A stretch of 30,467 nt of DNA from a virus. A program made the translations under genes and the position numbers. The notes beneath the pieces are model-generated. The model did no database searches. It was given only the letters and a program-made list of their open reading frames with translations, and was not told the origin of the DNA. The stretch spans positions 1-30,467 of IMG/VR virus record IMGVR_UViG_3300042981_000030. One strand, written 5' to 3'. Below, piece after piece: positions 16,192 through 26,547 of this stretch (position 1 is its first letter; every line of letters begins with the position of its first letter).

Positions 16192-17787
16192 TTAATATCC
16201 CGTTTCTGCGTCGCGTTCGGCAAGCAAAATCTGCTCTGCTTGCTTAAATGAGTCCCAACGCTCTTGCGTATAAGGTTTCGTCCATACTTGCGGGCCTTGT
16301 GCAAGCGCATCGAGCATATGATAGTCTTCTGTGGCTCCAAATTTGTTAAATTCTTCTTCAAAATCTACTTGGGTAATGTGGTGATATATGCAACCAGCCG
16401 CCCAATAGTTAGTCAAGCCTCTAACTCTTGCATCTTTTGCCTTGCCGCCCGTCTTAATAGGCACTACAATGAATCTGATTCCTCTTAATTTCATCTCAGA
16501 TTCCAACCAAGGCTTAAAAATAGCGCTAAAAAGCACATCTTCAATAGCTACAAGCCTTGGTTGCCAACGTACAACAGCTTTAAAAATGTAATCTACAAGC
16601 TCTGGCGGACGCCAATCATTCTTTGTAGCCTCTAGAATGAAGATTTTTTCGTCAGAAGCAGAGCCAGTAACAATGAAACCCGACTTACCAACAGTTGCAG
16701 GGTCAATTAAAATAACTCTATCGAGGTTCATTATGTTATGATACATCCAGCTTTCACCTACAGCATAACGTAGCTTATTATAACCTGCCCATTCATAGTA
16801 CCTTTTCCACTGCGGAAGTAGTTCATTTGCTCCCGCAGCAGGATCATTTGCATATTGTGCTGACCAAATCTTTGGATTCTTTTTAAGAATAGCAAAAGAT
16901 TCAGTTGTAAAAGCTTCTGGAAAGATTGGTTCTAACTCTCCAGTCGCTTCATTTAACTCTTCTGCCGCCCGAATATACTTTAATAATGACGGCCCATAAG
17001 TGATATGAGCATGATTGTACAAATCTTCATAAGCCCAGCGCGTACCAACAAGATCAAACTTGGCCTTTAAAAATTCTGTAAAGAAGGCTTGAATGTTATC
17101 AAACCAATCCTTAGCAGTTTGCATTTCAGCTTTAGAATCACGAGCTTTATCACCAATTAAGTCGTCTAGCTTTAAATAATCATAGTGCTTACCCTGACTT
17201 TTCCCACCTACGCCCATTGTATCGTAGGTGGCTTCATTCCAAATTTCAGACCTTGGTAATTCTAGTTCGTACTTATTAATTCTCTGCTTCTTAGCTGTAG
17301 GTACACATTCTGGAAATAATCCCATTAAGAGTGGATTACTTAGAAAGTGCCCAGCAATTGAAACTAAGAAGCGTGATGCCTGCTCAGCCGTTTCGTGCCC
17401 GATCAATAATCTAACATTCGTTCCAAGATTTTCAGGCCAAGGCGCAATCCCACTTTCATCGGGCAGTGGAATTTGTATGCTATGACCAATGGTAACGATT
17501 GTTGACTTATAGTGGGAACGAGGGAGTAGTATTTCTTTAAATCTCTGCTTCCAATTTCTCATAAGCCACCAGCAAAGCTCTCCGTGAAGCTTTGATGATA
17601 ACTTATTATATCCAAGAATTGCAGTACACAGAAAAAATAAATCTAACTTTGCGCGCTTACGAAGATACTTATACTGATCGGTTGTAAGCGATTCCATCTT
17701 CTTATCTGATAGCTTACGAGCTTTAGTTATGTTTTCTTCACTGATTAAGCTCGATATAGCAGCGTCTAAATCTTGATTAAGTTCCAT
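16192..17787 (-). CDS. terL: Terminase large subunit
   Basis: I use ATG 17787 (531 residues); an in-frame TTG at 17796 is the alternative and neither has a good ribosome site. The ATPase half has a variant Walker A (LPRSHYKST, about 88-96), adenine-contact region LLIGHETAEQASRF and Walker B (YLKLDDL, acidic pair near 208-209). The nuclease half has the RNase H-like acids: VILIDPA (Asp near 362), LVAIEDV (Glu-Asp near 416-417) and EDYHMLDALA (Asp near 488 and 493). It pumps DNA into the head and cuts concatemers, acting with the small subunit and the portal. Confidence 0.92.
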   Translation of the reverse strand: MELNQDLDAAISSLISEENITKARKLSDKKMESLTTDQYKYLRKRAKLDLFFLCTAILGYNKLSSKLHGELCWWLMRNWKQRFKEILLPRSHYKSTIVTIGHSIQIPLPDESGIAPWPENLGTNVRLLIGHETAEQASRFLVSIAGHFLSNPLLMGLFPECVPTAKKQRINKYELELPRSEIWNEATYDTMGVGGKSQGKHYDYLKLDDLIGDKARDSKAEMQTAKDWFDNIQAFFTEFLKAKFDLVGTRWAYEDLYNHAHITYGPSLLKYIRAAEELNEATGELEPIFPEAFTTESFAILKKNPKIWSAQYANDPAAGANELLPQWKRYYEWAGYNKLRYAVGESWMYHNIMNLDRVILIDPATVGKSGFIVTGSASDEKIFILEATKNDWRPPELVDYIFKAVVRWQPRLVAIEDVLFSAIFKPWLESEMKLRGIRFIVVPIKTGGKAKDARVRGLTNYWAAGCIYHHITQVDFEEEFNKFGATEDYHMLDALAQGPQVWTKPYTQERWDSFKQAEQILLAERDAETGY

Positions 17788-17792
17788 AGGAG

Positions 17793-18062
17793 TCAATCAA
17801 ATAAATTCTTGATGCTCCGAATTGGATGCTTAATTCTTTCCTTTGCCTTATCCGCAAATGAAGAATCCGACGCTTCCTTATGGTGCATCCTAGCATCAGC
17901 TTCACCAAATACCTTTGCAGTCTTACGAAGCGCAGCGCCCTTCTTACCGTAAGCCTCAATCAATAAAGAATCTTCCTGTGTCATTTCATCCCGACGCTGA
18001 TTCCTATACTTATCTCGTGGAGTTTCAAAACCTTGAAGCTTACGAGGATCTTGATCGCTCAT
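17793..18062 (-). CDS. Small charged helical protein upstream of terL
   Basis: The 89-residue protein is hydrophilic, rich in Lys, Arg, Asp and Glu, and predicted helical (RDEMTQEDSLLIEAYGKKGA, KERIKHPIRSIKNLF). It has no membrane segment. Its ATG at 18062 overlaps the stop of the preceding gene by four bases, and it ends six bases before terL. It may be a packaging or head accessory protein; no family is recognised. Confidence 0.6.
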   Translation of the reverse strand: MSDQDPRKLQGFETPRDKYRNQRRDEMTQEDSLLIEAYGKKGAALRKTAKVFGEADARMHHKEASDSSFADKAKERIKHPIRSIKNLFD

Positions 18063-19876: not shown

Positions 19877-20028
19877 TAGCTGTTTCAAATTGAAACATGT
19901 TGCAGATTGCAACGTAGCTGCTGAGACGTTCCAAACTGAAACACTATTGCAATACGCAAGACTTCATGCAAAATGCAATAGTAGCTGCCCGCTCTTGCAT
20001 TATGCAATACTTCGGGCATATTGCAAGA
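19877..20028. promoter_or_regulatory. Cluster of palindromes, candidate operator array
   Basis: Three modules each begin with TAGCTG (19877, 19915, 19982). The first has a perfect 17-base palindrome TGTTTCAA-A-TTGAAACA at 19881-19897; a copy with three changes sits at 19927-19943. Between and after them are TTGCA palindromes: GTTGCA-GAT-TGCAAC at 19899-19913, TATTGCAATA at 19945-19954, TTGCAT-T-ATGCAA at 19995-20007, and a longer near-perfect inverted repeat at about 19995-20027. This looks like binding sites for two dimeric regulators, or sites of a replication initiator. It lies between the late promoter and the early promoters, so it could control both. Confidence 0.6.
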
Positions 20029-20037
20029 TGTTGATAA

Positions 20038-20058
20038 TGTGGATAACTGTGTGGATAT
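20038..20058 (+). promoter_or_regulatory. Two DnaA boxes
   Basis: TGTGGATAA (20038-20046), the exact complement of the consensus TTATCCACA, is followed four bases later by TGTGGATAT (20050-20058). Both face the same way, one helical turn apart. They may be an extra DnaA-binding cluster about 1.4 kb from the main candidate origin, or a DnaA-controlled switch next to the early promoters. Confidence 0.6.
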
Positions 20059-20161
20059 GATACACAATCGTTACATTCTTGTGTATTGCGTTCACAAGCC
20101 TAGTATGTTAGCTTTCGATTGTAGTCAATAACGGTTGTTGCTGGCAGTTAAAGACGGGCTC

Positions 20162-20190
20162 TTGACAAATGGAGATGGATTAGCTAAGTT
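20162..20190 (+). promoter_or_regulatory. Early promoter P1, TTGACA-N17-TAAGTT
   Basis: A perfect -35 TTGACA (20162-20167) lies 17 bases before TAAGTT (20185-20190). It carries the CTCTTGACAAA context shared by the other promoters in this window. No gene follows before the next promoter, so it may make a short RNA or act in tandem. Confidence 0.5.
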
Positions 20191-20249
20191 ACAATCGTCA
20201 AGTTAAGCGATGCGCGGCGGGATAGTTAAAGCCTAGCAATCTGCAAGAC

Positions 20250-20278
20250 TTGACAAGGCAGAAGATGATAAGTACCTT
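20250..20278 (+). promoter_or_regulatory. Early promoter P2, TTGACA-N17-TACCTT
   Basis: TTGACA is at 20250-20255 and TACCTT at 20273-20278. The -10 is the weakest of the set. Just downstream an inverted repeat CTGTGAA...TTCACAG (about 20284-20312) would form a hairpin at the start of its transcript. Confidence 0.4.
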
Positions 20279-20371
20279 ATGCACTGTGAAGTTATTACTT
20301 GCAGTTTCACAGCGCCGGGAAGGTTTGGGAAAGTCTCTTCTGTTGTCATTGTAACGTGGCCCAGAAGGCTC

Positions 20372-20400
20372 TTGACAAAGTGCAGCAAAGCGATTAACTT
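20372..20400 (+). promoter_or_regulatory. Early promoter P3, TTGACA-N17-TAACTT
   Basis: TTGACA is at 20372-20377 and TAACTT at 20395-20400, spaced 17 bases. The CTCTTGACAAA context is present. It sits 38 bases before the ATG of the small basic gene at 20438. Confidence 0.55.
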
Positions 20401-20437
20401 GCATTATGCTCTTTCACAATCCAAAAGTGAGCCGAAA

Positions 20438-20698
20438 ATGTCAATGGTCGGCACAGACTTTAGCCACGGCGCAACAAGTCGCGCTAAGGTCAAGCGTGAG
20501 CGTAAAGTTACAATCTCACGCATCGGAAACTATCGTCGGAACGTTTGCCGTGCATTGCTGGATGGGAAGATAACATATCAGCAAGCGATTAAGCGAACGG
20601 GTGCGAGTCGTAGGAAAGCGCACAAGGCCAGCTGCACGTTTGACCCAATCAGCACTTGTGGCTTGAGCGTGTACACGAAGCAAGTTTCACGGGGCTAA
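20438..20698 (+). CDS. Small basic protein with possible HTH, first rightward gene
   Basis: I choose ATG 20438 (86 residues), because promoter P3 ends just before it; an earlier ATG at 20279 would place the start inside promoter P2. The protein is very basic (TSRAKVKRERKVTISRIGNY, RRNVCRALLDGKITYQQAIK, RTGASRRKAHK). The segment GKITYQQAIKRTGASRRKA has helix-turn-helix character. It could be a DNA-binding regulator or a small transcription modulator. The ribosome site is poor (GTGAG). Its last codons overlap the hairpin at 20693-20733. Confidence 0.5.
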   Translation: MSMVGTDFSHGATSRAKVKRERKVTISRIGNYRRNVCRALLDGKITYQQAIKRTGASRRKAHKASCTFDPISTCGLSVYTKQVSRG

Positions 20699-20733
20699 AT
20701 AGAGTAAGCGCGGGTGCGATACCCGCAAGCCCC
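20693..20733 (+). ncRNA. T-arm-like hairpin on an acceptor-like stem (tRNA minihelix remnant?)
   Basis: GCGGG-TGCGATA-CCCGC (20710-20726) has exactly a tRNA T-arm geometry: a 5-bp stem and a 7-base loop with only one change from the TTCGA core. It is followed with no gap by AAGCCCC (20727-20733), which pairs with GGGGCT at 20693-20698. No D arm or anticodon arm fits, either in the 11 bases between or in the 80 bases upstream. It may be a decayed tRNA, a minimal acceptor/T-arm RNA or simply a hairpin before promoter P4. It overlaps the end of the gene before it. Confidence 0.35.
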
Positions 20734-20762
20734 TTGACTTATGAAGGAAGCTGTATTAACTT
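20734..20762 (+). promoter_or_regulatory. Promoter P4, TTGACT-N17-TAACTT
   Basis: TTGACT (20734-20739) and TAACTT (20757-20762) are 17 bases apart. It would start transcription near 20769 and produce the CTAG-rich leader and the two tiny genes at 21127-21418. Confidence 0.5.
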
Positions 20763-21110
20763 AAGTGTAGGTGCAGTAAAAATAGCTCTTGGCAGTTAGA
20801 CTAGCGTGCGTGCATAGCGCATGACTCTAGGCAAACTAGTTTGCTCTATTGACAGAGCGGACAGGAACCTAGGCTAGGCCAAGAGACACAATGGCGAGAA
20901 AGATGCGTCGAGTTAGTCTAGTGCAGAGTCTGACAAACAAAGCATTTAGACTATTCAGGCCACAAGTTAGCTAGTGAACAAACCTAGACTAATGGAAGCC
21001 TATCGGCCCTAAGTCATTGGAGCGTGATAGCACGCTTTAGGATGGATTAGTCTAGGACGCTAAAGGTCTAGGACGTAATCTAAGCTTCGATGCTAACATC
21101 CTATTTCCTT
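20763..21110 (+). ncRNA. CTAG-rich, highly foldable leader or noncoding RNA
   Basis: No convincing gene lies in these about 350 bases. They contain many inverted repeats: CTCTTGGC (20786-20793) with GCCAAGAG (20878-20885), the palindrome GCAAACTAGTTTGC (about 20831-20844), GCTCT-N6-AGAGC (about 20843-20858), and CCTAGACTAAT (20983-20993) with ATTAGTCTAGG (21046-21056). The last pair encloses CCTAA/TTAGG and the tight hairpin AGCGTG-ATAG-CACGCT (21021-21036). GTCTAGGACG is repeated at 21050 and 21066. CTAG, usually a rare word, occurs about ten times. It may be a structured leader of the genes at 21127-21418, or a stand-alone RNA. Confidence 0.45.
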
Positions 21111-21126
21111 TAACGGAGTAGTTAAC

Positions 21127-21306
21127 ATGGCAAGGTTTAAAATTGAAATTGAAGCTTGTGATGAGAATGACGGTTTTGAGCCTTATGAAGGTGAAGTTGA
21201 AGTAGAAGCTGAAGACGCTTTTGATGCTCTCATTAAGTATGAACAAGAATTAGCTTATCCGGGCCGACATATCGCAATTCATGTAACAATGCTAGAGGAT
21301 AAGTAA
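21127..21306 (+). CDS. 59-residue acidic protein
   Basis: This short frame has ATG at 21127, with GGAG eight bases upstream, and stops at 21304-21306. The protein is acidic (MARFKIEIEACDENDGFEPY, EGEVEVEAEDAFDAL...) and ends in a beta strand (HIAIHVTMLEDK). The alternating strand-helix-strand pattern suggests a compact alpha/beta fold. No family is recognised. It follows the CTAG-rich leader, so its expression may depend on folding of that RNA. Confidence 0.65.
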   Translation: MARFKIEIEACDENDGFEPYEGEVEVEAEDAFDALIKYEQELAYPGRHIAIHVTMLEDK

Positions 21307-21307
21307 G

Positions 21308-21418
21308 ATGCAATACTATCCTAGTCTTGAGTCACTAAACATTGCAGTATGGGTATTCGTTGGACTCATGGTAATGTTGCTTATCTACGTTGTACGTTTG
21401 CGAATGAAGGATTACTAA
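21308..21418 (+). CDS. 36-residue single-pass membrane protein
   Basis: ATG 21308 comes one base after the stop of the gene before, whose end supplies AGGATAAG as ribosome site. The protein has one transmembrane helix (about 12-29: IAVWVFVGLMVMLLIYVV) and a short basic tail (RLRMKDY), so the C-terminus probably stays inside. It could alter the host membrane or block superinfection; this is speculation. Confidence 0.55.
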   Translation: MQYYPSLESLNIAVWVFVGLMVMLLIYVVRLRMKDY

Positions 21419-21445
21419 GCGTTAAGCGAGCTAGTAATTACTAAA

Positions 21446-21753
21446 CTCCAAACGGGCTCCAAAGACTCCAATTTTCCAATTGCTCCAATTCAGGGCAAGG
21501 AGTTTTCCACAGTGAGCTTAGGGAGTGTGGATAAGTGAGTGGGTATGTGGATATGTTACAATAATAAAAAAATATATAAATAACTTAACCACCTACCCTA
21601 CAGAAATCGAACACTAGCGGCTAACTTTCATACAGTGATTGTGGATAAGTCGCAGGAATGTGGAAATGTGGAAATGTGGATAACCCATGCCTCCTAGATT
21701 GGAGCATTTGGAGAAATTGGAGTTGTTTGGGAGTTGGGAGATTTCCCTTGGAG
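21446..21753. other. Candidate replication origin: DnaA boxes, A/T run, inverted iterons
   Basis: No gene fits here. On the left are five CTCCAAW-type words facing right (starts 21446, 21457, 21466, 21474, 21483; 8-11 bases apart). On the right are six WTTGGAG-type words facing left (21698, 21707, 21716, 21726, 21734, 21747). Between them lie DnaA boxes TGTGGATAA at 21526, 21640 and 21675, the variant TGTGGATAT at 21546, related TGTGGAAAT twice in tandem at 21659 and 21667, and TTTTCCACA at 21503. A 24-base run of only A and T (21560-21583) sits beside the second box, as expected for the unwinding element. Host DnaA plus a phage initiator binding the iterons could start replication here. Confidence 0.7.
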
Positions 21754-21781
21754 TTGCATTTGGCACTTACTAGGAGCAACA

Positions 21782-21949
21782 ATGCGACAGTATAATCTTG
21801 TCTTCTGGACAACGGAAGACGACGAATTAGACGATGGTACTATGATCTATCTAGGCTTCTGTAAGGATTGGACAGAAGCTCTTGAGATTGCCAAGGAAGC
21901 TCTTCCGGGCAATGCTGTTAGGTTGTCGCTGGAAGTCTTTGACTCTTGA
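21782..21949 (+). CDS. 55-residue small protein after the origin
   Basis: I choose ATG 21782 with AGGAG eight bases upstream; an upstream in-frame ATG at 21734 lies inside the iteron array. The protein (MRQYNLVFWTTEDDELDDGT, MIYLGFCKDWTEALEIAKEA) looks like a compact strand-helix-strand fold. The stop codon TGA lies inside the -35 box of promoter P5 (TCT TGA CA). The function is unknown. Confidence 0.65.
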   Translation: MRQYNLVFWTTEDDELDDGTMIYLGFCKDWTEALEIAKEALPGNAVRLSLEVFDS

Positions 21950-21974
21950 CAAAAGAAGCTGATTGTATTATCTT
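21946..21974 (+). promoter_or_regulatory. Promoter P5, TTGACA-N17-TATCTT
   Basis: TTGACA (21946-21951) contains the stop codon of the upstream gene. TATCTT (21969-21974) follows after 17 bases. Transcription would begin near 21981, about 24 bases before the tRNA-like RNA, which appears to be its first product. Confidence 0.65.
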
Positions 21975-22004
21975 TATCCTACATCGAAAGGAATCTAGTA
22001 AAAC

Positions 22005-22117
22005 GTGCCAAGGAGTTAAATGGATTGCTCCCCTTAACTCTTGAGCAAGTTAAGGTTTAATTAAACTCTTCACGGAGAGTTCTTAACTTGTGGTAGGTTC
22101 AAATCCTGCTTGGCACA
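22005..22117 (+). tRNA. Atypical tRNA-like RNA (about 113 nt), identity uncertain
   Basis: GTGCCAA (22005-22011) pairs perfectly with TTGGCAC (22110-22116), followed by discriminator A. Directly before the 3' strand is a canonical T arm, GTAGG-TTCAAAT-CCTGC (22093-22109). A D-arm-like hairpin GGAG...CTCC with GG in its loop spans 22012-22031, but the usual T8 is missing. The centre can form CCTTAACT/AGTTAAGG (22032-22039 / 22048-22055) with an 8-base loop containing CTTGAG, and a separate hairpin AACTCT-N6-AGAGTT (about 22065-22082) like a long variable arm. If the loop is an anticodon loop, TGA (Ser) is the best reading and GAG (Leu) the next. The total is longer than a normal tRNA and no CCA end is encoded. 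Confidence 0.5.
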
Positions 22118-22143
22118 TTTAACGTAAACAGAGGAAATGAATC

Positions 22144-22236
22144 ATGCTTTGCGAACAATGTAAAGTCAGAGTTGCACGCAAGGTGCGAGTTAGCGGTATC
22201 GTACATTGGTACTGTTACCACTGCTGGAGAAAGTGA
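22144..22236 (+). CDS. 30-residue zinc-ribbon microprotein
   Basis: ATG 22144 follows GAGGAAATGA. The product has two Cys pairs (CEQC at 3-6 and CYHC at about 24-27) separated by a basic strand-like stretch (KVRVARKVRVSGIVHWY), which is a minimal zinc knuckle or ribbon. It stops one base before the next ATG, whose ribosome site (GGAGAAAG) lies in its last codons, so coupling is likely. It could bind RNA or DNA. Confidence 0.55.
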   Translation: MLCEQCKVRVARKVRVSGIVHWYCYHCWRK

Positions 22237-22237
22237 A

Positions 22238-22429
22238 ATGTCTAAAATCATTGTTGTACACGATGCTCATGGACCTAATCGTAAGGTCTTAAGTGAGCAT
22301 GACAACGTGAAAGATGCAATCGAAAACCGTAAGGTGTTAGTAACGAAAGGCTGGCATCATTCAGAATTGGAGATTGCCAATGCTAATCCGATGGAAACCG
22401 GAAACGAAAAGGGAGAAGCAAGTCGTTAA
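22238..22429 (+). CDS. Hypothetical early protein, 63 residues
   Basis: ATG 22238 has GGAG eight bases upstream and is chosen over an upstream in-frame TTG. The protein begins MSKIIVVHDAHGPNRKVLSE and is mixed alpha/beta and charged. Its end overlaps the next gene in another frame by 50 bases. No family is recognised. Confidence 0.6.
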   Translation: MSKIIVVHDAHGPNRKVLSEHDNVKDAIENRKVLVTKGWHHSELEIANANPMETGNEKGEASR

Positions 22430-22562
22430 ACAGTTTGGTGATCTTTGGATATTGTCTGGTAAGCCTATGAATGGTAAAGTAATGATTACTTCTAGCTTTC
22501 TGCGCCCAGACTATGACATTCGATGGATTAATGAAAGTCAGATAGTCGAGCGTATTGAATGA
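22380..22562 (+). CDS. Hypothetical early protein, 60 residues
   Basis: I choose ATG 22380 with GGAG seven bases upstream, inside the preceding gene. The protein starts MLIRWKPETKREKQVVKQFG and continues with strands (LWILSGKPMNGKVMITSSFL), ending IRWINESQIVERIE. The long overlap suggests the true start could be later, but no better start with a ribosome site is visible. It overlaps the next gene by four bases (ATGA). Confidence 0.5.
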   Translation: MLIRWKPETKREKQVVKQFGDLWILSGKPMNGKVMITSSFLRPDYDIRWINESQIVERIE

Positions 22563-22774
22563 AAGTCTACATCGTTTCTCGGGGCTATAAGTACGAAGGT
22601 AGTTGCGTCGAAAGCGTCTTTGCTTCGTTAGAAGCTGCTTGTAAACAATATAGCCTTGATCCTACGCTTTATGATCTAAACAAAAACGAAAGCGGTTATT
22701 GGATCTTGAATTTAGATGATGTTTCTGGTGATGGACCTTACCTAACTATAAGTGAGCACGAAGTCAATGCTTGA
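22559..22774 (+). CDS. Hypothetical early protein, 71 residues
   Basis: ATG 22559 overlaps the preceding stop (ATGA). The protein (MKVYIVSRGYKYEGSCVESV, FASLEAACKQYSLDP...) looks like a compact alpha/beta fold with an N-terminal strand, a helix and a later Trp strand (GYWILNLDDVSG). Similar short folds occur in many phage early proteins of unknown role. Its end overlaps the next short frame by eight bases. Confidence 0.65.
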   Translation: MKVYIVSRGYKYEGSCVESVFASLEAACKQYSLDPTLYDLNKNESGYWILNLDDVSGDGPYLTISEHEVNA

Positions 22775-22922
22775 AGCCATCGAAGCATTAGTAAATACAA
22801 AATGGCTACGCACTGTGGAAAAGCGGGGAGTTTTCCACATAGCCCTATCCCGACCCCTTTATATCGGAATACTGCTGAAATTGGGGCTAATTTGGGACAA
22901 TCAGACTAACCGAAACTCTTGA
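22767..22922 (+). CDS. Possible 51-residue protein whose stop lies in promoter P6
   Basis: ATG 22767 overlaps the preceding gene, and the frame runs to TGA at 22920-22922. That stop is inside the -35 box of promoter P6 in the same TCT-TGA-CA arrangement seen at promoters P5 and P8, which supports the frame. The protein (MLEAIEALVNTKWLRTVEKR, GVFHIALSRPLYIGILLKLG) has an amphipathic start and a hydrophobic stretch. An inverted repeat at 22814-22839 lies within it. The ribosome site is weak. Confidence 0.4.
   Translation: MLEAIEALVNTKWLRTVEKRGVFHIALSRPLYIGILLKLGLIWDNQTNRNS
22814..22839. repeat. Perfect 9-bp inverted repeat TGTGGAAAA / TTTTCCACA
   Basis: TGTGGAAAA (22814-22822) and TTTTCCACA (22831-22839) are exact complements with an 8-base spacer. 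Both words also occur singly around the candidate origin (for example 21503 and 21659). It may be a DnaA-like or initiator binding site, or an RNA hairpin at the end of the P5 unit; no T-run follows, so it is not a standard terminator. Confidence 0.55.
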
Positions 22923-22947
22923 CAAAGGCACCCGATCATGTTATCTT
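22919..22947 (+). promoter_or_regulatory. Promoter P6, TTGACA-N17-TATCTT with extended -10
   Basis: TTGACA (22919-22924) and TATCTT (22942-22947) are separated by 17 bases, with TG one base before the -10 box. It drives the gene at 23010 and the structured RNA after it. Confidence 0.7.
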
Positions 22948-23009
22948 ATGTTCTGTGGGGATGGGATGGGTAACGTAACTAATCATTCACTAACAACGAG
23001 GGTAAGCAA

Positions 23010-23420
23010 ATGAAGTTCGGCAAGGTTAAGAAGAAGGTAACGCATGAGAAGTATGGTGAGCGTGAGATTACCTTCCTTGTTCCGCAGACTGAAAGTGTCG
23101 AAGAGCTGACGCAGTTTTACGGTAGTGCGGCGGAACATGTTTCACGCAATAACAAGTTGATTGGCCGTAGCGCACCACAGTCTAGCTTGCTCCGTCTCGG
23201 CAAGTCCAGTGCTGCAACGCTGGAAGATTTCGAAAAGGAAATTGCTGACGAAATCGAAAAGACTAAGCAGTACAAGCCTGAAACTACTGGCGGAATGAGC
23301 CGTGCAACTAAGGCTGAGAACGCTGATAAGATTCTGGCCCTTGCTACTGAGGATAAGGAACAGTTCCTTAAGATGACTCCTGAGCAGATTCTTGCAATGC
23401 TTCAGGGTAGCGCGGCGTAA
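23010..23420 (+). CDS. Hypothetical early protein, 136 residues
   Basis: ATG 23010 has GAGGG about 9 bases upstream. The protein starts with a basic strand region (MKFGKVKKKVTHEKYGEREI), then helices (SVEELTQFYGSAAEHVSRNN), a central loop and a second charged helix (LEDFEKEIADEIEKTKQYKP). It ends with a helical pair rich in Glu, Lys and Met (DKEQFLKMTPEQILAMLQGS). There is no membrane segment. It is the only gene in a short unit between promoter P6 and the terminator at 23544, so it is probably abundant. I recognise no family. Confidence 0.75.
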   Translation: MKFGKVKKKVTHEKYGEREITFLVPQTESVEELTQFYGSAAEHVSRNNKLIGRSAPQSSLLRLGKSSAATLEDFEKEIADEIEKTKQYKPETTGGMSRATKAENADKILALATEDKEQFLKMTPEQILAMLQGSAA

Positions 23421-23422
23421 GA

Positions 23423-23536
23423 GTAGCATTGCACGGTGAGGGCATTAAGAGTGATACTAGACTAGCTTAATGCCTGAAAGTCGCCAAGTGTCTAGCTTGT
23501 ATGGGCGGGTTTCCGTCCGCGACTGTGCAATGCTAC
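23423..23536 (+). ncRNA. Structured RNA: 12-bp closing helix, two hairpins, possible pseudoknot
   Basis: Starting three bases after the preceding stop, GTAGCATTGCAC (23423-23434) pairs perfectly with GTGCAATGCTAC (23525-23536). Inside, GGCATTAAG (23441-23449) pairs perfectly with CTTAATGCC (23466-23474) around a 16-base loop. GCGGGT-TTCC-GTCCGC (23505-23520) forms a second hairpin with two G-T pairs. CTAGAC in the first loop (23457-23462) is complementary to GTCTAG (23490-23495) in the strand between the hairpins, giving a possible 6-bp pseudoknot. An intrinsic terminator follows at once. No frame of note fits. This looks like a compact folded RNA released from, or attached to, the mRNA of the gene at 23010. 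Confidence 0.65.
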
Positions 23537-23543
23537 ACCTAAG

Positions 23544-23575
23544 GGCTAGTAGGGTCAAACCTACTAGCCTTTTTT
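23544..23575 (+). terminator. Intrinsic terminator
   Basis: GGCTAGTAGG (23544-23553), loop GTCAAA and CCTACTAGCC (23560-23569) form a perfect 10-bp hairpin followed by six T (23570-23575). It ends the unit starting at promoter P6 and separates it from promoter P7. Confidence 0.92.
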
Positions 23576-23621
23576 CTGACTAAGTTACAAGCTTTAGTTA
23601 CTAAAGCTTCTATTAGAAAAC

Positions 23622-23650
23622 TTGACAAACGGACCCGATTGTGTTATATT
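23622..23650 (+). promoter_or_regulatory. Promoter P7, TTGACA-N17-TATATT with extended -10
   Basis: TTGACA (23622-23627) and TATATT (23645-23650) are 17 bases apart, with TG one base before the -10 box. The spacer shares CGGACCCGAT-type sequence with P6. It should drive the long operon from 23688 to about 29165. Confidence 0.75.
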
Positions 23651-23687
23651 GGGTTTCGTGGCGGTTTCCTCTAAAGGTGAAAAGCAA

Positions 23688-24200
23688 ATGGCCCTTTTAA
23701 ACATGACTTCCGAACAATCCAAAGCTGTCAAGGATTGGATACATAAGGAATATGGAAGGAAGGCAGGGCTATTTCCTTATGAGTATGACGTGCAATATGA
23801 TGATGCAATGAAGAATGAAATAGAAATTAAATGTGGCAAGGTGATTCTTATATTAATTAAGTATCCACCTTGGCATGAAGAGTTTAAGCCTACATTGCGT
23901 CGAGTGTTTAGTCGGATTGACCTGCGCGAATTTCTTAGAAGTCAAGCGCTTGTTAAGTATGATCCAGAAGTAGCACGTTGGCGATCATTGAAGATGAATA
24001 GAATTGCCGACGATATTATTAAGCATGAAGATAAAACGTTTGGCGGAAAGAAGCTGAATAAGTACACTGTCCGCTATGTTACTGAGCTTGAAGTTGTAGA
24101 TAATAAAACGAAAGCAAGAGTTGCAGTTAAGCTAGATGGCAATGCGTTCACTGCGCTAGACAAGGCGCTTAAGATTCTCTATGGAGCTAAATCAGTATGA
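23688..24200 (+). CDS. Hypothetical protein upstream of SNF2 helicase, 170 residues
   Basis: I choose ATG 23688; an upstream in-frame start at 23622 would lie in promoter P7. AAAGGTGAAAAG precedes it. The protein is charged alpha/beta: MALLNMTSEQSKAVKDWIHK, a strand pair (EIEIKCGKVILILIKYPPWH), helices (RRVFSRIDLREFLRSQALVK), and a basic C-terminal part (KKLNKYTVRYVTELEVVDNK). It overlaps the helicase gene by four bases (ATGA), so the two may act together in DNA replication or repair. No family is recognised. Confidence 0.7.
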   Translation: MALLNMTSEQSKAVKDWIHKEYGRKAGLFPYEYDVQYDDAMKNEIEIKCGKVILILIKYPPWHEEFKPTLRRVFSRIDLREFLRSQALVKYDPEVARWRSLKMNRIADDIIKHEDKTFGGKKLNKYTVRYVTELEVVDNKTKARVAVKLDGNAFTALDKALKILYGAKSV

Positions 24201-26356
24201 CTAATCCAGCAATGAATGACGACGAGCTTGAGAGAGAGCTTGAACGGAAGCTTGCTGAGATTAGAGAACGTAAGCAAGCCAGAGAAACTTATCTTTATGA
24301 TTGGCAGTTAGCAATCGAAGAGAATGAACGTAGGCGCATTAAGCCTTGCATGATTAGTAATATTGAAATCATTAACGATGTTCTTTACTTTTCAGCAAGC
24401 GAAAGTCGTGCGGATGTTAACCTAACAATTAGAAATCACAAGACTACAAAGTTTAATTATCTCGACAACAAGTGGAGTGTAGACGTTCCTGAATGGTTGC
24501 CTTTGGCTGAAAAGCTTAAGCAATTGCCGTCCGTTTATCTCAAGTATGGTGAGCTAAACGAAAAAGGTATTAAGGCTTGGAAAGCTTCAGCACCATTTGA
24601 GATTAAACTACACAAGAATTATTTTGAAGTCAAGCTGGGACCGAAGGCTAATGCTTATCTAATTCGCGTTATCCCCGGCACCACATATGACAGTCGCAGA
24701 CTTCTGTATCTTGTTCCATTAACAGAAGGCTGGCGTTTGCCTAGCGCATTAAAGGAAGTTGAAGGTGTAATCTATAGTGAAGAAGCACAAGCCTATATCA
24801 ATGATGCGTTAACAAAGCGTGCCAAACTTGACGAGATTGCTACTAAGACTGAGCCAGCAGAGCATATAGAGTTAAATGGCTACAAGCTTAGAGATTTTCA
24901 GTCAATAGCTGTAGAGTTTGCAGAAGCAGCACAGACTCGAATGATTAATGCTCTTGAAATGGGATTGGGTAAGACCCCATGCACTATTGCAGTAATGGAG
25001 AGACTTGCAGAACGTGGTGAGGGTAGTAAGTTTCTAATCATTCCGCCCGCAAGTCTTATTCCCAATTGGGTACGCCAAGTTAAGCAGTTCACTGGCTTCC
25101 GTGCCTATGTGCTAAATGGTAGCGTACCTAATAACTATGACATTGCTCAAGTCCTTGCAGGCAAGCATCGTTATTACATCATTAATTACGATTGCCTTAG
25201 TGAGATTACTAAGATTCCTGCCAAGACAGAAATTGACAAGGCAACAGGCTTAAAGGTAGAAACTCCTGCCACTACCCGTCAAATGTGGGTAGAAATTCTA
25301 AACGCAGGAAACTTTGATGCCATTGCAGTAGATGAAGCGCATTACATTAAGAACGTGGGCTCGAATAGATCGAGAGCAGTTCGTGACCTAGTTTCTCCGC
25401 GTTGGATGTTGCTTACTGGTACTCCATTGCTTAACCGTCCTAGCGAGCTGTGGCCTCTTATTAAGGTACTAGACCCTGACTCGGCAGGCGCTTATGAGTC
25501 ATTCGTAAATCACTATACAATTGACGGTAAGCGAGCTAGGAATGTAGATGAATTGAGGGAGATACTCAAGCCTCTTATGTTCCGTAAGGTTAAGAAGGAT
25601 GTGCTTAAAGAGTTGCCGCCTATTAACCGAATTACTCGCGAATATACATTGTCATCCAAAGCGCAGGCACAATACAACAAGGTTGTTGAAGGTCTTTGGA
25701 GTGATGTAGATAAGTGGGATGGCAGCACGGACAACACTACAGTAATCACTAGTATCCTAGCACAGTTACTTAAGATGAAACAAGTCTGTGCGTGGGACAA
25801 GGTGGATTATATTGTAGAGCTTGCAAATGAATTATATGAAGAGTCAACAGATACACACAGGAAGGTACTGATCTTCTCACAATTCGTCAATAGCCCGGAA
25901 GTAGTTAAAGCTATTAGCGACAAGCTTAACGTAACTTCTAAGGCTACTGGTTCACCGAACGAAGCTATTTGGTTTAGCGGTGAAATGGATGTAATGAAGA
26001 GACAGCTTATTGTTAATGAGTTCCAAGCTAATGATAACCTACACTTCCTAGTTGCTGGAATTAAATCAGCTAGGGAAGGATTGGATATTACAGCAGCGGG
26101 AAGTGTAATCTTTGCCGATCTTGATTGGACTCCAGCAAATCATCATCAAGCAGAAGCAAGAGCATATGGGCGGTTGAACGATTTGCATAGCGTTAACTCT
26201 TACTATGTAGTAAGTGAGAATACAATCGAAGAAGATATTATGGGACTATTGCAAGCTAAGCTTGAGTTGTTCAATGAGATTGTTGAAGGCGCAGAAGCAA
26301 GTCGCGATAGTTCAATCGTAATGGAGCTTATTAAGTCACTTAAGGAGAGACGTTAA
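24197..26356 (+). CDS. SNF2-family DEAH helicase/translocase
   Basis: The 719-residue protein has an N-terminal domain (about 1-220) that is helical at first and then beta-rich, partly like the HARP-type region of SMARCAL1-like enzymes. The helicase core follows: Q-motif-like GYKLRDFQ (229-236), Walker A EMGLGKT (254-260), DEAH (379-382), TGTP (407-410), then a second RecA lobe with KVLIFSQF (about 556-563), GLDIT (about 628-632) and QAEARAYGR (651-659). SNF2 motors use ATP to move on double-stranded DNA. In phages, lone SNF2 proteins are thought to assist replication, recombination or fork remodelling. No nuclease domain is fused. The start overlaps the preceding stop (ATGA). Confidence 0.9.
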   Translation: MTNPAMNDDELERELERKLAEIRERKQARETYLYDWQLAIEENERRRIKPCMISNIEIINDVLYFSASESRADVNLTIRNHKTTKFNYLDNKWSVDVPEWLPLAEKLKQLPSVYLKYGELNEKGIKAWKASAPFEIKLHKNYFEVKLGPKANAYLIRVIPGTTYDSRRLLYLVPLTEGWRLPSALKEVEGVIYSEEAQAYINDALTKRAKLDEIATKTEPAEHIELNGYKLRDFQSIAVEFAEAAQTRMINALEMGLGKTPCTIAVMERLAERGEGSKFLIIPPASLIPNWVRQVKQFTGFRAYVLNGSVPNNYDIAQVLAGKHRYYIINYDCLSEITKIPAKTEIDKATGLKVETPATTRQMWVEILNAGNFDAIAVDEAHYIKNVGSNRSRAVRDLVSPRWMLLTGTPLLNRPSELWPLIKVLDPDSAGAYESFVNHYTIDGKRARNVDELREILKPLMFRKVKKDVLKELPPINRITREYTLSSKAQAQYNKVVEGLWSDVDKWDGSTDNTTVITSILAQLLKMKQVCAWDKVDYIVELANELYEESTDTHRKVLIFSQFVNSPEVVKAISDKLNVTSKATGSPNEAIWFSGEMDVMKRQLIVNEFQANDNLHFLVAGIKSAREGLDITAAGSVIFADLDWTPANHHQAEARAYGRLNDLHSVNSYYVVSENTIEEDIMGLLQAKLELFNEIVEGAEASRDSSIVMELIKSLKERR

Positions 26357-26547
26357 TGCTCAAACCCGGTCAATGTTGCTATCACATAGGTAAGGTTGGC
26401 AGCACAAATGATAGTGACTTCTGCCGTAGGCGCACAGACTATTATTACGAAACAGATGATGATGGTAATAAAGTAAGAAAGTATGACTCTTTCTGTTTCA
26501 TGCACACTCCTAGCTCGGATGAAGATATGGAGATCGAACCCGAATGA
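26356..26547 (+). CDS. Small Cys/His-containing protein
   Basis: ATG 26356 shares one base with the helicase stop (TAATG). The 63-residue protein has CCYH at 7-10, another Cys (FCRRR, about 22-26) and FCFMH (about 46-50), which could bind one zinc ion. It ends in an acidic tail (SSDEDMEIEPE). A helicase cofactor is possible, but only position suggests it. Confidence 0.6.
   Translation: MLKPGQCCYHIGKVGSTNDSDFCRRRTDYYYETDDDGNKVRKYDSFCFMHTPSSDEDMEIEPE

Follow-up and report, generated by a model that had tools for sequence, protein, structure and literature searches.

The xrRNAs known so far, ring-like pseudoknots from eukaryotic RNA viruses, halt 5′-to-3′ enzymes. In bacteria, small RNAs (sRNAs) derived from 3′UTRs form a class reviewed in PMC9438474, and phage sRNAs are reviewed in PMC12197685. 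The E. coli pre-16S rRNA is accompanied by a BoxA and a leader-trailer helix, and tethering of BoxA is thought to aid the formation of that helix (PMC10250234).

The window analyzed here is a complete phage record from IMG/VR (30,467 bases, 42% GC), and the RNA element under study occupies positions 23423-23536, directly behind an early gene, orf136 (23010-23420). Coordinates refer to the plus strand unless noted otherwise. The terminase large subunit (phrog_38, 16192-17796, minus strand) lies with portal and capsid in a minus-strand structural block, and an SNF2-type helicase (24197-26356) is found among the early-type plus-strand genes.

Predicted fold and transcript context

RNAfold assigns −77.2 kcal/mol to 23415-23585, compared with −49.9 kcal/mol (sd 4.1) for shuffled sequences. 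With a z of −6.66 against dinucleotide shuffles, and 0 of 200 shuffles as good, the original prediction that such a fold is unlikely to arise by chance holds. The fold is closed by P1, in which GTAGCATTGCAC (23423-23434) pairs with GTGCAATGCTAC (23525-23536) over exactly the 12 bp first proposed, at pair probabilities of 0.99-1.0. P1 encloses the P2 hairpin (23440-23475; loop 23450-23465), whose 10 bp (23440-23449/23466-23475) consist of the 9-bp helix already recognized at 23441-23449/23466-23474 and an additional G-U pair, 23440/23475. It also encloses P3 (23479-23524), a 6-bp helix AGTCGC/GCGACT (23479-23484/23519-23524) that in turn contains two hairpins, P4 (CAAGT-GTCTA-GCTTG, 23485-23499; stem 23485-23489/23495-23499) and P5 (GGGCGG-GTTT-CCGTCC, 23503-23518; stem 23503-23508/23513-23518). 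P5 is the GC hairpin of the original prediction, which had placed it two positions off, at 23505-23520. A pseudoknotted three-way junction had been suggested, and a predicted structure with an intramolecular loop-loop ‘kissing’ pair is indeed what we find, but P3 and P4 had been missed, so that the architecture is one of two nested three-way junctions. Rfam 15 returned nothing above the gathering threshold for the element, and nothing on 23423-23536 up to an E value of 5, in agreement with the earlier remark that no named family matches.

The putative kissing pair joins CTAGAC in the P2 loop (23457-23462) to GTCTAG held by P4 (23490-23495), a complementarity that had been noticed before; it is read from complementarity, as the folding programs used give no score for such pairs. 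Shuffling the loops gives p 0.006 for any 6-bp loop-loop match in the window. P2 comprises 10 bp and P3 plus P4 comprise 11 bp, which places the two loops roughly level, as an intramolecular kissing pair requires. Full six-pair kissing needs the opening of three weak apical P2 pairs of the minimum free energy structure and of the terminal P4 pair.

The element appears to be the end of a short transcription unit. The predicted promoter of orf136 (TTGACA-17-TATCTT, 22919-22947) agrees with 10 of 12 consensus positions, carries a TG before the −10 and belongs to a repeated set, CTCTTGACAAA..TTATCTT. No internal promoter, sought as a plus-strand site with at least 9 of 12 positions, lies between it and the element. 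Behind the element, a stable hairpin and a U run, the hallmarks of an intrinsic (Rho-independent) terminator, occupy 23541-23575; the stem has 13 bp (23541-23553/23560-23572, −21.4 kcal/mol) and ends in six T (23570-23575), the 10 pairs originally described being its central part. The next gene (ATG at 23688) has its own promoter downstream of the terminator (23622-23650, 11 of 12 consensus positions), very similar to that at 22919-22947. Given a sole upstream promoter, a terminator just downstream and a separate promoter for the next gene, the element can be assigned to the orf136 transcript, and from the placement of these sites it is most likely the 3′UTR of a transcript about 620 nt long that carries this one gene.

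The ends of orf136 mRNAs across a diverged phage family

A search of 50,697 phage records with positions 20000-26400 of the window gave no nucleotide match, single-protein scans with orf136 and with the helicase as queries found no relatives, and a scan for the promoter pattern had no match. Among the matches listed from the phage and IMG/VR collections there was no near relative; terminase relatives in IMG/VR are 39-58% identical, and searches with terminase and helicase led to a diverged phage family in which orf136 recurs. All phage sequences compared are metagenomic, with no isolate among them. A genome scan with the terminase matched one contig, inside a Blastocatellia (Acidobacteriota) MAG, and a contig carrying orf136 (L153) comes from the same bin; resting on this one metagenome bin, Blastocatellia as host of the window phage is a hint, no more.

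Homologues of orf136 were identified by tblastn and profile in at least L002, L003, L007, L012/L013, L014-L019, L022, L055 and L057, as well as in L153; scans that used L055 alone, or else five relatives, as query yielded no further carrier. The AlphaFold model of the protein (pLDDT 85, pTM 0.50) is a beta-hairpin plus helices with no significant match among PDB and viral models, and searches of Pfam and PHROG gave no match. Reading the DNA after the orf136 stops revealed three kinds of 3′ end: a kissing-loop RNA closed by P1, in the window and L055 only; a clamp formed between 5′UTR and 3′UTR; and a plain terminator-like hairpin, in L002, L003, L022 and L057. The contig of L019 ends before this region can be classed. 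An Rfam search of the relatives gave nothing but tRNAs. Just upstream of the orf136 promoter, L002 (4430-4100, minus strand) and L003 (7330-7130, minus strand) contain a long, conserved and apparently structured non-coding stretch.

L055, whose helicase is 45% identical to that of the window, is the second carrier of the layout. Its P1 (TGGTGAGTA/TACTCACCA) begins 8 nt past the orf136 stop, and its two hairpins, GCGA-CTAGTCA-TCGC and GTAGG-CTGACTA-CCTAC, have arms of nearly the same length (4 bp and 5 bp) and 7-nt loops with 6-bp complementarity (TAGTCA/TGACTA; p 0.002 by loop shuffling). A kissing-loop junction, that is, a P1 closing two hairpins with complementary loops, is thus predicted in both phages. 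They have layout and position in common, whereas their sequences cannot be aligned and the junctions differ, P3 of the window enclosing P4 and P5 and L055 having a four-way junction. The L055 fold is moderately unusual (z −2.9), and no terminator was recognized after it. No convincing kissing pair was seen in L007 (p 0.27) or, by eye, in L013, L015, L017 and L153.

How often such a layout arises by chance was gauged with descriptors. A loose one (P1 of at least 8 bp, two hairpins, a 6-bp loop pair) matched 71 times in 421,652 bases of relatives, compared with about 38 times in shuffles; the window element has the longest P1 among these matches (15 bp including one G-U), tied with a palindromic site in L018. 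As the loose descriptor is too unspecific, a strict one was used, which matched 17 times in 2.77 million strand-bases against 5-14 times in shuffles, one of the 17 matches lying immediately behind the orf136 stop of L055. By arithmetic from the descriptor counts, the probability of a strict match within 20 nt of the orf136 stop at any of the 12 other loci is about 0.0015, although p values of this kind are optimistic since the descriptor was designed after L055 had been seen. With two RNAs that cannot be aligned and junctions that differ in detail, the evidence from L055 is fair, not overwhelming. That different letters carry the same pairing layout points to function by shape in cis.

Seven relatives (L007, L013, L014, L016, L017, L018 and L153) instead have a long helix between the orf136 5′UTR and 3′UTR next to a BoxA-like motif; motif and clamp are absent from orf136 in the window and L055. 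The clamp helix of L007, L013, L016 and L017 surpasses that of each of the 439 other open frames tested, and those of L014 and L018 are shown by duplex energy. Between L007 (23 bp, G-U pairs included) and L153 (24 bp) the pairing is kept while the sequences differ. The 5′ strand of the clamp sits immediately after GCTCTTTGAC or GCTGTTTGAC. In L014, L016, L017 and L018 the 3′ strand contains an inserted hairpin, whose loop has a conserved TCAA and whose stems vary, and then AAGAGC-like bases that pair with the BoxA-like motif itself. The insert of L013 resembles a small three-way junction, and a comparable junction is found at the equivalent position in L015, whose clamp is statistically unremarkable. 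UTR-UTR pairing at orf136 of the window was tried and rejected (z +1.5, with 277 of 439 background genes as good). The pattern CTCTTTGA[CA]AA, with at most one mismatch, occurs in 18 of the 22 Acidobacteriota 16S leaders examined, so that rRNA leaders of the suspected host phylum typically contain this form of the motif.

We consider the combination of BoxA and UTR clamp in the relatives a more surprising discovery than the window element. The relatives also suggest a testable idea, a phage mRNA that imitates the BoxA and leader-trailer helix of pre-rRNA, so that a phage protein gene might profit from antitermination or processing of the host's rRNA type. On a more speculative reading, which we regard as doubtful, the orf136 mRNA of this family would be built like pre-rRNA, with a host-type BoxA, a long leader-trailer helix around the gene and, within the trailer, a folded insert that varies, and in the window the clamp would have been lost and the insert turned into a stand-alone protective 3′ end. 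To our knowledge, and in the literature searched, armoring or processing of phage mRNA in the manner of pre-rRNA has not been described.

Several other non-coding features were observed. A tRNA-like RNA at 22004-22120, with its own TTGACA promoter (21946), has an acceptor GTGCCAA/TTGGCAC, a canonical-looking T-arm (GTAGGTTCAAATCCTGC) and a long insert with two mutually exclusive pairings; ARAGORN does not call it. A second promoter-led stretch at 20762-21110 is CTAG-rich, non-coding and highly paired, with a P1-like CTCTTGGC/GCCAAGAG at about 20786-20888, and L055 has a stretch resembling it at 2510-2860 with a T-arm-like hairpin at its end. An AT-rich core (AAAAAAATATATAAATAA and similar) at about 21540-21600, also present in L007, L015, L022, L057, L153 and L003 and bordered on both sides by inverted repeats in several relatives, is a possible replication origin. 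Between divergent gene blocks, 19940-20030 holds a cluster of inverted and direct TTGCAAT/ATTGCAA repeats, possibly a binding array for a regulator or replication protein.

Possible roles of the element

The sequence and its predicted fold, the excess of this fold over chance, the rightly placed promoter- and terminator-like sites and the independent layout of L055 are direct results, and from them a course of events can be proposed. RNA polymerase would start behind the promoter at 22919-22947 and transcribe orf136, and the P1-closed fold would form just past the stop codon. In it, the P3-P4 arm (11 bp) would lie alongside P2 (10 bp) and the two loops may pair (CUAGAC/GUCUAG), locking a compact body, behind which the polymerase would halt at the strong terminator. 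Body and terminator hairpin could then block 3′-to-5′ exonucleases, and may shield the stop-codon region, the outcome being a presumably long-lived early mRNA with a defined end. We tentatively favor this reading, with somewhat less than even confidence: the element would be a 3′ end specific to this lineage and acting in cis on the orf136 mRNA, serving protection plus termination, which we hold to be likelier than a conserved trans-acting sRNA. A trans-acting sRNA is expected to keep its seed and a protein-binding RNA its core. Here, only layout and place recur and sister lineages structure the ends of the same mRNA otherwise, which favors a cis role of shape in protecting and defining the mRNA end. 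The UTR-UTR helices that tie both mRNA ends together in those lineages would be another arrangement protecting the ends. A plain terminator-like hairpin suffices in L002, L003, L022 and L057, so there is no general requirement for the element. Should the layout be functional, it would represent a 3′ end of phage mRNA working through three-dimensional shape instead of sequence, encountered twice with unrelated letters.

Among the three functions offered originally, the nuclease-resistant end is thus the best supported, and the sRNA and the host regulator fare less well. Cleavage near the stop could release a stable RNA, about 115-155 nt long, with host or phage RNAs as its trans targets or with the role of a sponge for a protein, for example an RNA chaperone. 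3′UTR-derived sRNAs typically consist of a compact fold with a terminator directly behind a stop codon, and like them the element shares the terminator of the upstream mRNA, but it has no internal promoter, and no unpaired conserved seed is seen among the diverged relatives compared. Its sequence is common to no relative found, among which there is no close one, and the element is missing from almost every other orf136 locus; we therefore consider such an sRNA unlikely. Most relatives keep the gene without the stems, an outcome that the original prediction had itself named as counting against it, L055 being the exception with a version of different sequence. Less likely again seems a site bound by a protein, in the simplest case the orf136 product regulating its own mRNA: the gene adjoins the element in both carriers and elaborate UTR RNA surrounds it in much of the family, but the RNA is wholly different between the carriers and orf136 has no recognizable RNA-binding domain.

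The region could also be an ordinary terminator whose remainder is a chance or neutral fold, as the simple hairpin of four relatives and the small sample of one sequence and one look-alike might suggest; the shuffling statistics and the presence of the layout at the same place in L055 make this improbable. We give only a slim chance to a translation-coupled switch. Inside the end of orf136, TGCAATGCT (23393-23401) duplicates part of the P1 3′ strand, and may form a perfect 9-bp hairpin with 23425-23433 (−13.4 kcal/mol) before P1 does; ribosomes would clear this copy, so that P1 and the downstream fold would need orf136 to be translated to its stop. Yet the longer P1 wins at equilibrium, and as no counterpart of the copy was noticed in L055, the 9-base match is possibly due to chance. 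Equally remote is a trans-acting part of a phage RNA machine or a mimic, such as a packaging RNA, a host-defense decoy or a tRNA-like RNA. Kissing loops, a compact fold and other RNA-like elements in this phage, the tRNA-like RNA for one, speak for it, but the terminase gene is kilobases away from the element and belongs to a different transcription unit. Identity with a tRNA was rejected, there being no T-arm or acceptor, as was identity with a phi29-type pRNA, given no match to the pRNA covariance model, a terminase on the other strand and no phi29-type packaging locus.

Comparison with known systems

As in the three-way junction of purine riboswitches, P1 would carry two parallel arms with paired loops, but the element is larger, has an extra nested junction, sits at an mRNA 3′ end and has no Rfam match. 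With phi29 pRNA it shares phage origin, a three-way junction and, as predicted, loop-loop pairing, but it belongs to an early-region transcript away from the packaging genes, again with no Rfam match. The clamp phages recall pre-rRNA (PMC10250234) in that a BoxA-like GCTCTTTGACAA is followed at once by a long helix joining the flanks of the transcript body, although they enclose a protein gene, and the motif is partly paired in several of them. Bacterial and phage sRNAs from 3′UTRs resemble the element in being structured RNA after a stop codon with an intrinsic terminator at the end, whereas the element shows no conserved seed among the relatives compared, and its layout recurs where its sequence does not. 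It differs from xrRNA-type ends in showing no evident ring and no Rfam match, and is like them in its compact closed fold and in a putative tertiary loop pair at the RNA end, proposed here to act as an exonuclease stop.
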